NCBI GenBank assembly: GCA_041486365.1
Contig: JBGPLH010000083.1
Coordinates: forward strand, 1 to 10,903
Direction of reading: 5' to 3'
Length of the DNA: 10,903 bases
From: JBGPLH01 sp041486365 [NCBI: Thermodesulfobacteriota bacterium]
Lineage (GTDB): Bacteria > JAUYMQ01
The translations under genes and the position numbers were made by a program. The notes under the pieces were generated by a model. The model was not told the origin of the DNA, did not search any database, and saw nothing but the letters and a program-made list of their open reading frames with translations. Below, piece after piece: positions 4,947 to 8,178 of this stretch; the first letter of the stretch is position 1, and the number at the start of each line of letters is the position of its first letter.

Positions 4947-5147
4947 ATGCGGATGGGTCCGCAGGAGTTGGGATGGCTGGAGTGGGATCCCTTCCGGGGG
5001 TGGGAGGCCTCGCACGCGAGTTTCGAAGCCGAGCTGTCGGATCCGGTGAGCCGGGCGCCCTTGGAGTCCGCGCTACCGCCGTCGGTGGACATCGATGACG
5101 TCGAGGACGCGCGGATGGGTCCGGAGGGATTCACGACCTGGTTTTGA
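4947..5147 (+). CDS. 66-residue acidic hypothetical protein
   Basis: The ORF begins six bases after a perfect AGGAGG (4935-4940). The protein has no signal peptide or membrane segment. It is acidic and tryptophan-rich (GWLEWDPFRGWE near the start, VDIDDVEDA near the end), and no family is recognised. Its two ends share the motif RMGP (residues 2-5 and 56-59), encoded by a 13-base in-phase direct repeat GCGGATGGGTCCG at 4949 and 5111. The second in-frame ATG (4953) is a possible alternative start. It diverges from the SDR gene and converges with the PEP-CTERM gene. The strong ribosome site and open frame support a real gene; the function is unknown. Confidence 0.6.
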   Translation: MRMGPQELGWLEWDPFRGWEASHASFEAELSDPVSRAPLESALPPSVDIDDVEDARMGPEGFTTWF

Positions 5148-5251: not shown

Positions 5252-5890
5252 TCAGGCGGTGCGCTCGACGCGTCTGCGGAGTCGGGCAAGCAAGAGCCCA
5301 AGGCCCGATGCCATGAGCGACACAGACCCCGGCTCGGGCACCGCTGCCCCGAGGGTGATGTTGTCGAATGTGAGGAGGCCGGTGAAGTCGTTCACGTCGG
5401 GCACCGAGGTCGATCGCAGGGTGAACTGGGTGATGCTGGACCAGTTGGAGTCGAAGTTGATGGTCCCGGTGCCCCCGAAGGTCAATGTGGTCCCATTGGA
5501 CGCCACGATCTCCCACACGCCGGTGGACGGATTGAGCAGCTCCTCGATGTCCATGCTCGACAATGTGAATGGGACGCCGAAGAAATCGATGATCACTTCA
5601 TCGCCGTCGTTGCCGGTGTGAATTTGGCCCTCGCGCTCGCCAGAGATGCTGCCCGGTCCTTCGCTGATGTCGTAGATATCGAAATGGTCCTGCTCGAATC
5701 CAGGTTGCGCCTGATTGATCGTGCTGAAGCGGAACCCGTCCTCGACATACGGCGGGGCAAAGGTTGGAGGCTGAAGTATCCCGCCATTCCCGAAATCAAG
5801 CACGACGGCCTCGGCCGGCGCCGCCTCGGCCGCAGCCGCTACGGACAGAGCCACTACCAACCGAGTGAGTTTTCTTGTCAATGCGCTCAT
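5252..5890 (-). CDS. PEP-CTERM sorting domain protein
   Basis: The protein of 212 residues begins with a Sec signal (hydrophobic 10-28). The middle is beta-rich and has no cysteine: LDFGNG (31-36), then repeated short strands such as GGTGTINFDSNWSSITQFTL. It ends with the tripartite PEP-CTERM signal: VPEPG (184-188), a hydrophobic span (189-202) and the basic tail RLRRRVER (203-210). In this system an exosortase (EpsH family) cleaves at the PEP motif and the product is exported to the surface or extracellular matrix, often with exopolysaccharide. No exosortase is in the window. GGAAGG lies five bases before the ATG. A sigma-54-like site is seen just upstream (5913-5926). The central domain is not assignable to a named family with confidence. 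Confidence 0.9.
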   Translation of the reverse strand: MSALTRKLTRLVVALSVAAAAEAAPAEAVVLDFGNGGILQPPTFAPPYVEDGFRFSTINQAQPGFEQDHFDIYDISEGPGSISGEREGQIHTGNDGDEVIIDFFGVPFTLSSMDIEELLNPSTGVWEIVASNGTTLTFGGTGTINFDSNWSSITQFTLRSTSVPDVNDFTGLLTFDNITLGAAVPEPGSVSLMASGLGLLLARLRRRVERTA

Positions 5891-5912
5891 TGTCGCCTTC
5901 CATAAAAGATGG

Positions 5913-5926
5913 GCAAGGGTCCGGCC
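5913..5926 (-). promoter_or_regulatory. possible sigma-54 (-24/-12) promoter of the PEP-CTERM gene
   Basis: The minus strand reads GGCCGGACCCTTGC from 5926 to 5913, with GG and TTGC at the exact spacing of the sigma-54 consensus (GGCAC-N5-TTGC). Transcription would start near 5902, just before the GGAAGG ribosome site (5901-5896). Matches are good at the invariant GG and GC, but the CAC part is only partly conserved. Confidence 0.3.
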
Positions 5927-5960
5927 GTGAGGGCGAGTGGTCGACGCGCCTACTTCAAGC

Positions 5961-6002
5961 AGAAAAACAAAGCGGCGGGCGCTGTTCCCAGAACCTGCCG
6001 CT
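5961..6002 (-). terminator. strong minus-strand Rho-independent terminator
   Basis: Reading the minus strand, AGCGGCAGG (6002-5994) pairs with CCCGCCGCT (5979-5971), eight Watson-Crick pairs plus one G-T. The stem continues after a 2x2 mismatch with CTG/CAG closing a four-base loop. It is followed directly by TTGTTTTTCT (5970-5961), eight T's in ten. The plus strand has no T-tract after the stem, so the signal is strand-specific. It ends a minus-strand transcript arising in the 6002-6300 interval. Confidence 0.75.
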
Positions 6003-6127
6003 CTGTCTATTAGGTCGGCCTGGCCTGTGACCGTCCGGCGCAGAGCAGCCGCGGGAGCGAGGAAACCCGCGCTTGCTCCGTTCGCGTCCTGTCGCCTCCC
6101 TTTCAGGAGGCCGTCCCCTTGGCCTTG
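6003..6127 (-). ncRNA. hairpin-rich 3' part of a minus-strand transcript
   Basis: Between the small ORF stop (6128) and the terminator (6002) the minus strand holds at least two clean hairpins: GCCTCC (6111-6106) with GGAGGC (6099-6094), and an eight-pair stem joining 6079-6072 with 6061-6054 (one G-T). A weaker GGTC/GACC stem spans 6032-6013. No rRNA, tmRNA, RNase P, SRP or 6S signature was recognised. It could be a structured 3' UTR or an independent small RNA. Confidence 0.35.
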
Positions 6128-6232
6128 CTAATCTTCCCTACCCGGAAAGTGAGCTGACGCCGCTACCCGACAAGCCTTCCTCATGAGAGCGGCGAGGCCT
6201 AGGCTGAGTCCGACGAAGACGATGACATCCAT
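6128..6232 (-). CDS. 34-residue small membrane-type ORF
   Basis: On the minus strand an ATG at 6232 lies eight bases after a perfect AGGAGG (6246-6241) and opens a 34-codon frame ending in TAG at 6128. The peptide starts MDVIVFVGLSLGLAALMRKA: one hydrophobic span of about 14 residues (3-17), a basic patch (Arg18, Lys19, Arg22), then a polar tail ending FPGRED. This is the usual look of a single-span microprotein with the N-terminus out by the positive-inside rule. No family is recognised; it loosely resembles the membrane part of a PEP-CTERM tail, so a gene remnant is the main alternative. A minus-strand terminator lies 126 bases downstream, which supports transcription in this direction. Confidence 0.45.
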   Translation of the reverse strand: MDVIVFVGLSLGLAALMRKACRVAASAHFPGRED

Positions 6233-6494
6233 GCTGCGGACCTCCTGGGAGCTGGTGCCCTCGTGATTTCCCTGCTCGGTTAGTGTCGAGTGCGCGCAAA
6301 GGTGTCACGCGGGCGTGCCGTTTTTCGCAGAAAATGGGATCGACCGGAACCCCGGGAAGGCGAAATCTCCCATCGTGGAGCTTCGGAGCCTCCGCTGGAT
6401 CCGCCCCGCGCTCAGGCTCTTCCACCGGGATCTCGCCTACTTGCCCCGGAACCTCCGGCGGGCGCGTAGGGCACGCGCCCGGGTGAGCCATTCG
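6233..6494. other. intergenic stretch without a supported gene
   Basis: Apart from the small-ORF ribosome site (6241-6246) and weak minus promoter, this stretch shows only an imperfect stem: ATGGGA (6334-6339) with TCCCAT downstream, enclosing CCGG-AACC-CCGG. Open frames here are Arg-rich or Pro-rich and lack ribosome sites, typical of chance frames in GC-rich DNA. Confidence 0.4.
6280..6308 (-). promoter_or_regulatory. weak promoter candidate for the small-ORF transcript
   Basis: On the minus strand GTGACA (6308-6303) is followed after 17 bases by CACTAA (6285-6280). The -35 is good, the -10 poor. It would start transcription near 6273, 41 bases before the small ORF. Confidence 0.2.
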
Positions 6495-6523
6495 TTGACG
6501 CTCCCCCCCGAATTCACTATCCT
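6495..6523 (+). promoter_or_regulatory. sigma-70-type promoter of the tRNA-Leu/tig operon
   Basis: TTGACG (6495-6500) and TATCCT (6518-6523) are separated by exactly 17 bases, five of six and four of six matches. It is the best promoter in the window by eye. Transcription would start near 6530, leaving a leader of about 110 nt before the tRNA. That leader contains the stem GCGGGCC/GGCCCGC (about 6534-6561) and a CCCC-GAC-GGGG hairpin near 6593-6603. Confidence 0.55.
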
Positions 6524-6639
6524 CCTCGCCACGGCGGGCCGCTGTTGCTTCATGGGCCCGCTCGTACCCTCGATCGCCACCGGAGAATCCCCGACGGGGC
6601 GACTCCCTCCGAGGGGCCGGCCGGATCCCGCAGGCCATC

Positions 6640-6721
6640 GCGAGAGTGGTGGAACCGGCAGACACGCGAGACTTAGGATCTCGTGCCGAAAGGCGTGGGG
6701 GTTCGACTCCCCCCTCTCGCA
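6640..6721 (+). tRNA. tRNA-Leu (anticodon UAG)
   Basis: A full class II cloverleaf is present. The acceptor stem is GCGAGAG (6640-6646) with CTCTCGC (6714-6720) and the discriminator is A6721. The anticodon stem is CGAGA (6667-6671) with TCTCG (6679-6683), and the anticodon is TAG at 6674-6676. A long variable arm GCC-GAAA-GGC and a T-arm GGGGG-TTCGACT-CCCCC follow. The isotype is Leu, reading CUN codons. The bases after the discriminator are CCC, so the terminal A of CCA is not encoded and must be added after transcription. It stands 134 bases before tig, with no terminator between, so a tRNA-mRNA co-transcript is likely. Confidence 0.95.
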
Positions 6722-6751
6722 CCCCCCATTTCCGAATCGTTCACCCAGGTT

Positions 6752-6819
6752 CCCCCGCCCGGCAGCGCATCCTGCGCGCGCCTCGCGCGCACCGTCCGCT
6801 CGTGCGCAGCCTCCGGGGG
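6752..6819 (+). promoter_or_regulatory. structured 5' leader of tig
   Basis: CCCCCG (6752-6757) pairs with CGGGGG (6814-6819). Inside are two competing stems: CTGCGC (6772-6777) with GCGCAG (6804-6809), or GCGCGCG (6774-6780) with CGCGCGC (6784-6790). No T-tract follows, so it is not a terminator. It may protect the tig message after the tRNA is cut away, or be an incidental GC-rich fold. Confidence 0.3.
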
Positions 6820-6855
6820 CAATCCGGGTGCCCGCGAAAAAGGTGAGACCTCCCG

Positions 6856-8178
6856 ATGAAATCATCCTTTGAATCGCTCGGCCCTTGGGAGCGGAAGCTT
6901 TCGGTCGAGATCCCGCCCGAAGAGGTGGGAGAGACGGTGGACCGTGCGTTCCGCGCCATGGCTGCCCGGGCGCGCGTGAAGGGCTTCCGGCCGGGCAAGG
7001 TCCCGCGCGCGGTGATCGAGCGGCTCTACGGCGACCGGATCCGGAACGAGGTGGTCCAGTCGCTCGTCGAACGCACCTACGGGGAGGCCGTGCGAGAGCA
7101 CCACCTCGAGCCCGTGTCCGAGCCGGTGGTGGAACCGGAAAGGCTCGATCCCGGTCAACCCTGGCGCTACACGGCGCGCGTGGAGGTGAAGCCGCCGGTC
7201 AGCGTGTCGACCTGGCGCGGACTCTCCCTCGTGAAGCCCGACACGACCATCGAGGAGTCGGCGGTCAACGCGCGGATCGAGCGTCTCGCCGAGATGCAGG
7301 CGCAACTTGTCGCCGAGGATGAGACGGCCCGGCTCGCGCGAGGGCAATTCGCCGTGATCGATCACACCGGCACGATCGACGGCATCGCGTTCCCCGGCGG
7401 GTCCGGGAACGGGGTTACGATCGAGATTGGCGCCGGCGGTTTCGTCCCCGGGTTCGAGGAGCAGCTCGAGGGGATGGCGAAAGGGGAGACCCGCGAGTTC
7501 GAAGTCACGTTCCCCGCGGACGAGCGCCACGGCGATCTGGCCGGCAGGCCCGCGCTCTTCCGGGTGACGGTCCAGGAGATCAAACGGAAGGTGGTCCCCG
7601 CCATCGACGACGAATTCGCGAAGGACGTGGGCGGATTCGACACGTTGGACGCGCTGCGTCGGAAGGTGGGGGAGGATCTCCAGGCGGAAGCCGAGCGGGA
7701 GGCGAAGCAGGCGCTGCGCGACCAGGCGCGCGATGCGCTCTCGTCGTCGAACCCCGTGGCCGCGCCCCCCGCGCTCGTCGAGCGCGAATTCCGCTCCATG
7801 TTGGAGGGTATGCGGCGGCGACTCGCGGCGCAGGGCGTCTCGATGGATCAGCTCGGACTCTCGCCGGAGGTGCTCGAGAAGGACTGGCGCCCGCGCGCGG
7901 AGACGAGCGTGAGGGCGGCCCTGATCCTCGAGCAGATCGCACGCGACGAGGGGATCACGGTGGGGCCCGAGGCGATCGACGAGCGCATCCAGGACATGGC
8001 GCGTGAGACGCGGCAGACGCCGCGCGCGGTGCGCCAGGCCTACGAGGAACGAGGCCTGATTCCCGTTCTTGAAGGCCGACTTAAGGAAGAAAAGGCTCTT
8101 GATCTGGTGCTGGAAACGGCTACTATGCAAACAGGTGAACGCGCGCAGGACACGGCGGTGAAGGCGAAGAAAAAGTAG
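6856..8178 (+). CDS. tig: trigger factor, ribosome-associated chaperone and prolyl isomerase
   Basis: The protein of 440 residues is the usual length for trigger factor. It binds ribosomal protein L23 at the exit tunnel and helps nascent chains fold. The N-terminal ribosome-binding domain (1-115) contains the signature GFRPGKVP (43-50). The FKBP-type peptidyl-prolyl isomerase domain (about 155-243) includes [17 protein letters not shown]. The C-terminal helical substrate-binding arms (about 250-425) start at [21 protein letters not shown]. The tail is Lys-rich (VKAKKK). The start has AAGGTGAG eight bases upstream. It is first in the tig-clpP-clpX-lon cluster, after tRNA-Leu, and clpP follows 38 bases later. 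Confidence 0.97.

Follow-up and report, generated by a model that had tools for sequence, protein, structure and literature searches.

The interval between a PEP-CTERM protein gene and a tRNA-Leu gene in the window (by which we mean the whole stretch of 10,903 nt analysed here) raises the question of whether its minus strand carries a gene of its own and, if so, of what kind. The interval measures 750 nt, and its features, together with those of the neighbouring genes, are collected in Table 1. On its plus strand, the window also holds genes that we take, from their translations, to be clpP, clpX and lon. The reading that we favour, with a confidence somewhat above even, is that the candidate unit is an independent minus-strand gene for a small membrane protein with a short transcript of its own. 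It is favoured because the syntenic gap of a relative holds small ORFs and a hairpin, and because a block of sequence upstream of the small ORFs is shared between the two.

Table 1. Features of the candidate unit and its neighbourhood, in window coordinates
Feature	Position	Strand	Basis
Upstream block common to the window and its relative	6325-6270	minus	local alignment
Shine-Dalgarno sequence AGGAGG	6246-6241	minus	read directly, pattern statistics
34-codon ORF	6232-6128	minus	translation MDVIVFVGLSLGLAALMRKACRVAASAHFPGRED
3′ untranslated stretch with GC-rich hairpins	6127-6014	minus	fold statistics
Intrinsic-terminator-like stem-loop and T tract	6008-5961	minus	folding, shuffle statistics
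PEP-CTERM protein gene	5890-5252	minus	Pfam PF07589, 22.6 bits against a cut-off of 20.7
Shine-Dalgarno sequence GGAAGG and signal-peptide-like N-terminus of the PEP-CTERM gene		minus	read directly
SDR gene	4747-3980	minus	Pfam
tRNA-Leu	6640-6723	plus	Rfam hit to tRNA
tig (trigger factor)	6856	plus	Pfam

A reading made from the letters alone (the sequence-only reading) had pointed to an AGGAGG eight bases before an ATG on the minus strand, and to a 34-codon frame with one hydrophobic span and a basic patch; both descriptions hold. Eight nucleotides separate the AGGAGG from the ATG at 6232, and the frame is closed by a TAG at 6130-6128. The product has a single hydrophobic span at approximately residues 3-17, which is followed by RKACR, and its C-terminal end is RED. 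Its 17-residue hydropathy is 2.2; among 20,000 random sequences with the same GC content, a fraction of 0.0003 reach this value. Chance rates for the Shine-Dalgarno (SD) and ORF pattern, and for hairpins, were taken from dinucleotide shuffles of the 750-nt interval. An AGGAGG followed after 4 to 9 nt by an ATG and an ORF of at least 25 codons appears in 1.35% of 2000 shuffled intervals (0.0135 per interval). The real window has three such arrangements, belonging to a cytochrome c-like ORF, a 66-aa ORF and the 34-codon ORF.

Downstream of the ORF, the stem-loop at 6008-5965 is followed by the tail TTTGTTTTTC, in which 8 of 10 letters are T. The 65-nt stretch 6020-5956 has a minimum free energy (MFE) of -28.4 kcal/mol (z -3.11, with 1 of 200 shuffles as good), and the hairpin by itself, as a centroid structure, reaches -27.9 kcal/mol. 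The plus strand of the same stretch folds more weakly (-23.7 kcal/mol, z -1.84, 11 of 200 shuffles) and has no T tail, which bears out the earlier description of a strand-specific terminator with eight T's in ten. T-tailed hairpins with a dG of -20 or lower occur at a mean of 0.02 per shuffled 750-nt interval (200 shuffles), and at 0.3 on average in 20 shuffles of the whole window. In the real window there are seven T-tract sites, two of them at or below -20, namely the candidate terminator (-21.5) and a stronger one at 239 on the plus strand (-27.5), so that the candidate is not the only such site in the window. A simple terminator scan did not list the site at 5961; the other minus-strand sites that it gave were 6353-6336 and 5603-5587, where 1.7 were expected.

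These rates bear on the possibility that the ORF arose by chance in a non-coding gap and that the hairpin is inert or belongs elsewhere. The second strong T-tailed hairpin would fit such an account, as would a codon usage that is not gene-like and the absence of homologues, both described below. However, an SD, a hydrophobic frame and a terminator are jointly rare in this order on one strand, and the match of the upstream block with the relative also argues against chance, which we regard as highly improbable.

The sequence-only reading had further proposed a microprotein gene or a dual-function RNA, having seen two or three hairpins ahead of the terminator. The hairpins are indeed present in the MFE fold, but their stability is ordinary (z -1.53, with 15 of 200 shuffles equally stable or better). 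The fold of the leader and ORF is not unusual either (z -0.44). The whole 348 nt fold with a z of -2.50 (1 of 100 shuffles as good), a stability that is attributed mainly to the terminator. At the gathering score, Rfam returned tRNA only, and no leader or other RNA family. Its rows for 5850-6650 at E <= 10 were dismissed as chance: mir-9201 had an E of 0.0093 and 25.3 bits where 95.5 are needed, and sul1, Xoo2 and COG3860 were far under their gathering scores. Of the two proposals, the microprotein is the best reading in view of the shared upstream block, while the dual-function RNA finds support neither in the 3′ hairpins nor in an Rfam family. The unit is probably a further instance of a familiar class of small gene, and not a new kind of RNA.

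Relatives of the locus were found by a genome scan with trigger factor, and the best 80 of 491 were kept. Among these 80, the locus on contig JAUYMQ010000238.1 (L001, from genome G001) has a trigger factor that is 60% identical, and the next relative stands at 37%. G001 is the sole genome of its class and phylum among the genomes searched, and the lineage of the window appears to be hardly sampled. L001 retains the gene order SDR, 66-aa ORF, gap, tRNA-Leu and tig. Its gap lacks a PEP-CTERM gene and contains, on the minus strand, an 83-aa and an 85-aa ORF, each with a hydrophobic stretch in its N-terminal part (17-residue hydropathy 2.34 and 3.01). These ORFs are preceded by SD-like sequences, not by the exact AGGAGG pattern; the one match to that pattern in L001 falls within the SDR gene and is therefore a false positive. 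The small ORFs are followed by a T-tailed, uninterrupted hairpin (core -18.9), whose 61-nt stretch folds at -40.7 on the minus strand and at -29.5 on the plus strand. Since it also folds on the plus strand, where a convergent ORF ends, this hairpin may also serve something other than the small ORFs. Its core, with at most 2 mismatches, occurs in G001 at two places in the gap and one elsewhere, against 1 and 1 for a backward control.

The L001 pair and the 34-codon ORF have the same position and strand and a similar upstream block. In their products the second or third residue is acidic and a hydrophobic span follows, and the hairpins of both loci have a GGCAGGTTC arm. L001 differs in having two longer ORFs with polar tails and in that no PEP-CTERM gene is adjacent. 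At the protein level, the 34 residues were compared with the N-terminal 40 residues of each L001 product; the similarity is at chance level for the 83-aa product (17% of 2000 shuffles as good) and weak, at best marginal, for the 85-aa product (3.15% of shuffles). The 83-aa and 85-aa products are themselves alike (0.05% of shuffles). In PHROGs they have weak rows only (E 0.0065 and 0.026), and for the 85-aa ORF the Pfam and NCBIfam rows, at E >= 0.16, are below cut-off. A DNA alignment of the whole interval between the window and L001 scores 59 and is not significant (100 mononucleotide shuffles, mean 40.3, maximum 71).

The upstream block emerged when the 150-nt stretches that precede the 34-aa and 83-aa ORFs were compared by local alignment; in L001 the block corresponds to 2194-2136. 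Its pattern is an A-tract, then TGACACCT[TA]TG...TCGA..CAC, and its end lies 37 nt before the ATG in the window and 43 nt before it in L001. When one side was shuffled 1000 times, the alignment score of 16 was never matched; with both sides shuffled, 3 of 5000 alignments were as good, and under a second scoring 21 of 5000. Scanned against the block, 11 of 872 windows of L001 score 14 or higher, every one of them overlapping the matched site. In the query window, where 2152 scanning windows were scored, all those at 15 or higher overlap the block site; scores of 13 or 14 occur at three further places. By these alignments the two sites are reciprocal best matches. Among 79 other loci, 15 of 40,240 windows (6 places, with a top score of 17) also reach 16, so the score is not unique by itself and the position of the match counts. 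A comparable match is absent from the 150 nt that precede the 85-aa ORF, where 959 of 1000 shuffles score as well. A global MAFFT alignment of the upstream regions placed the gap elsewhere and left TGACACC unaligned, so the case for a shared block rests on the local alignments.

Its placement and its match in L001 suggest that the block is probably a promoter or operator. A sigma-70 scan of 5300-6900 found no minus-strand site and a single promoter-like site, at 6495 on the plus strand, and a clear sigma-70 -10 box was not seen by eye in the block. Two gapped patterns of the block each match the locus itself and one other place in G001, with 0 and 1 matches for the controls; a regulon was rejected, as these counts are close to those of the controls. 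A reduced motif of the block has one match in the window, but it was built from that very site and proves nothing. For the gapped pattern whose control had 0 matches, the other place in G001 lies upstream of an ORF that, by our own recognition, is presumably ThiS-like.

Codon usage was scored with a model trained on nine window genes, with 231 held-out, overlapping gene segments for comparison. The 34-codon ORF scores -0.445 bits per codon where the held-out segments average +0.48; no segment among the 231 falls to this value, which is equalled or exceeded by 47.7% of the 595 stop-free stretches in the interval. Low scores are also seen for other small or secreted ORFs, namely the L001 83-aa ORF (0.001), the window 66-aa ORF (0.021) and the PEP-CTERM gene (0.091), but all lie above it. 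The codon usage of the ORF is thus not gene-like, and this keeps a reading of truncation or decay alive. The 34-aa product has no match in Pfam (E <= 10), NCBIfam, PHROGs or PADLOC (E <= 1); the sequence-only reading had recognised no small-protein family in it either. A homologue search did not find a relative of it either: 72,556 plasmid records gave 5 rows, all at E >= 2, and of 98 genomes, G001 included, 18 had rows at E <= 10, the best at E 0.31 and none in G001.

Truncation or decay is the main rival, although we consider it unlikely on balance. The ORF would be the remnant of a longer small-membrane-protein gene or gene pair, as found in L001, of which the promoter and SD survive together with the start and the initial ~17 codons, with the remainder eroded to non-coding sequence before the old terminator. 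Codons 2-17 score +0.24 bits per codon and the final 17 score -1.09 (raw scores, without a null for the halves), and the corresponding place in L001 is occupied by two ORFs, of 83 and 85 residues. However, neither the strong SD nor the terminator hairpin is damaged, the other frames, read by eye, offer no continuation that resembles the tail of an L001 product, and the 34 residues have no significant alignment to the 83-aa product.

The neighbouring PEP-CTERM gene opens a further alternative, in which the 34 codons would encode a leader peptide and the hairpin at 5961 would act as a regulated attenuator. The T tract lies 70 nt before the ATG of the PEP-CTERM gene on the same strand. The 34-aa ORF and the PEP-CTERM ORF (6232-5252, minus strand) also share a frame, with one TAG as the sole in-frame stop between them, but an open frame of such length is estimated to arise by chance in ~15% of cases at the GC content of the window. 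When the 3′ arm of the terminator is absent, two other pairings appear in the MFE fold, one between the 5′ half and 6012-6024 and one between the SD region (6250-6244) and the loop side of the hairpin (5992-5986). This alternative could link translation start and termination, as in an attenuator-like switch. In the full transcript, however, the 5′ arm pairs upstream with a probability of at most 0.002, the terminator fold is 16.8 kcal/mol better than the best fold without the 3′ arm, and such alternative pairings, given here without a null, are easily found in GC-rich RNA. Nor does any Rfam leader reach its gathering score, and the rows admitted at E <= 10 resemble chance matches. The matching block of L001 precedes small ORFs in an interval without a PEP-CTERM gene, which speaks against the leader. 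The sequence-only reading had held that the transcript must arise here, as the PEP-CTERM gene lies beyond the terminator; that argument left a PEP-CTERM leader possible, and it is the L001 interval that weighs against one. Taken together, we judge a leader improbable, and the PEP-CTERM gene is probably a transcription unit separate from the small ORF. A GG-N10-GC sigma-54-like site before the PEP-CTERM gene of the window matches at just 8 of 12 positions. G001 has 14 PEP-CTERM loci, and the ORF was located by script in 11 of them; one, L135, has an 11/12 site ~125 nt before the first Met. With a weak site in the window and one strong site among the 11, the comparison is no proof of a separate PEP-CTERM promoter.

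Under the favoured explanation of an independent small-protein gene, the promoter region at ~6325-6270 would start a minus-strand transcript of ~300 nt, and the strong SD would drive translation of a 34-residue single-pass inner-membrane protein. The transcript would then end at the terminator, at 5961. Positively charged residues tend to remain on the inner side of the membrane (the positive-inside rule), and on this basis the acidic N-terminus would probably lie outside and the RKACR patch inside. The locus would be the counterpart of the two-gene small-membrane-protein set of L001, the products having diverged beyond sequence recognition. E. coli YohP, YkgR and YshB, as described in PMC7549839, are products of overlooked small ORFs, with fewer than 50 residues and essentially one span, as is predicted for the 34-aa protein. 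The same paper reports that some small membrane proteins modulate or stabilise membrane complexes, and by analogy our guess is that the 34-aa protein may do so too.

A short, hydrophobic and basic peptide from a structured mRNA could instead be a type I toxin that is held in check by an antisense RNA. Membrane-associated type I toxins are described in PMC8309996 as shorter than 60 aa and hydrophobic, with a putative helix and cationic residues, and the 34-aa product agrees with them in size, in hydrophobicity and in the cationic residues after its span. It differs in that there is no signal of an antisense RNA, no sigma-70-like site being found on the plus strand over the unit; this is a weak test, as the same scan covers sigma-70-like sites only and misses any promoter of the unit itself. 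The leader structure is also ordinary, as the leader and ORF fold showed, the L001 products bear long polar tails, and the searches of Pfam, PHROGs and PADLOC gave no match. A toxin therefore appears very unlikely.

A variant of a different kind, which we consider doubtful, is a very fast-evolving small-membrane-protein locus that conserves its regulatory block, start region and terminator from one species to the next while the protein is exchanged or remodelled. If true, this would be the pattern expected of a self-directed membrane modulator or a toxin-like peptide under arms-race or turnover evolution, and it would provide a case for studying the origin and replacement of small membrane proteins under a stable promoter. 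Genes this short elude annotation, and the locus illustrates how control signals and position can hint at a small gene when there is no protein match.

Several other features of the neighbourhood were observed. The 66-aa ORF, at 4947-5147 on the plus strand of the window and at 1167-1367 on the plus strand of L001, sits between the SDR gene and the gap. The two copies are of equal length and 39% identical; AGGAGG precedes the window copy, and the C-terminal motif is GFT-x-WF. Pfam and NCBIfam show no family for it at E <= 10, and by its conservation it is a predicted small protein that has escaped annotation. In L001, a second strong hairpin lies upstream of the small ORFs at 2300-2355 on the minus strand (dG -39.4, z -5.73); its core is GGCAGG...CCTGCC, and its T tail is weak. 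Finally, a promoter-like site, TTGACG-17-TATCCT, precedes tRNA-Leu at 6495-6523 on the plus strand of the window, and its counterpart in L001 is TTGACG-17-TAGTCT at 2512-2540 on the plus strand.
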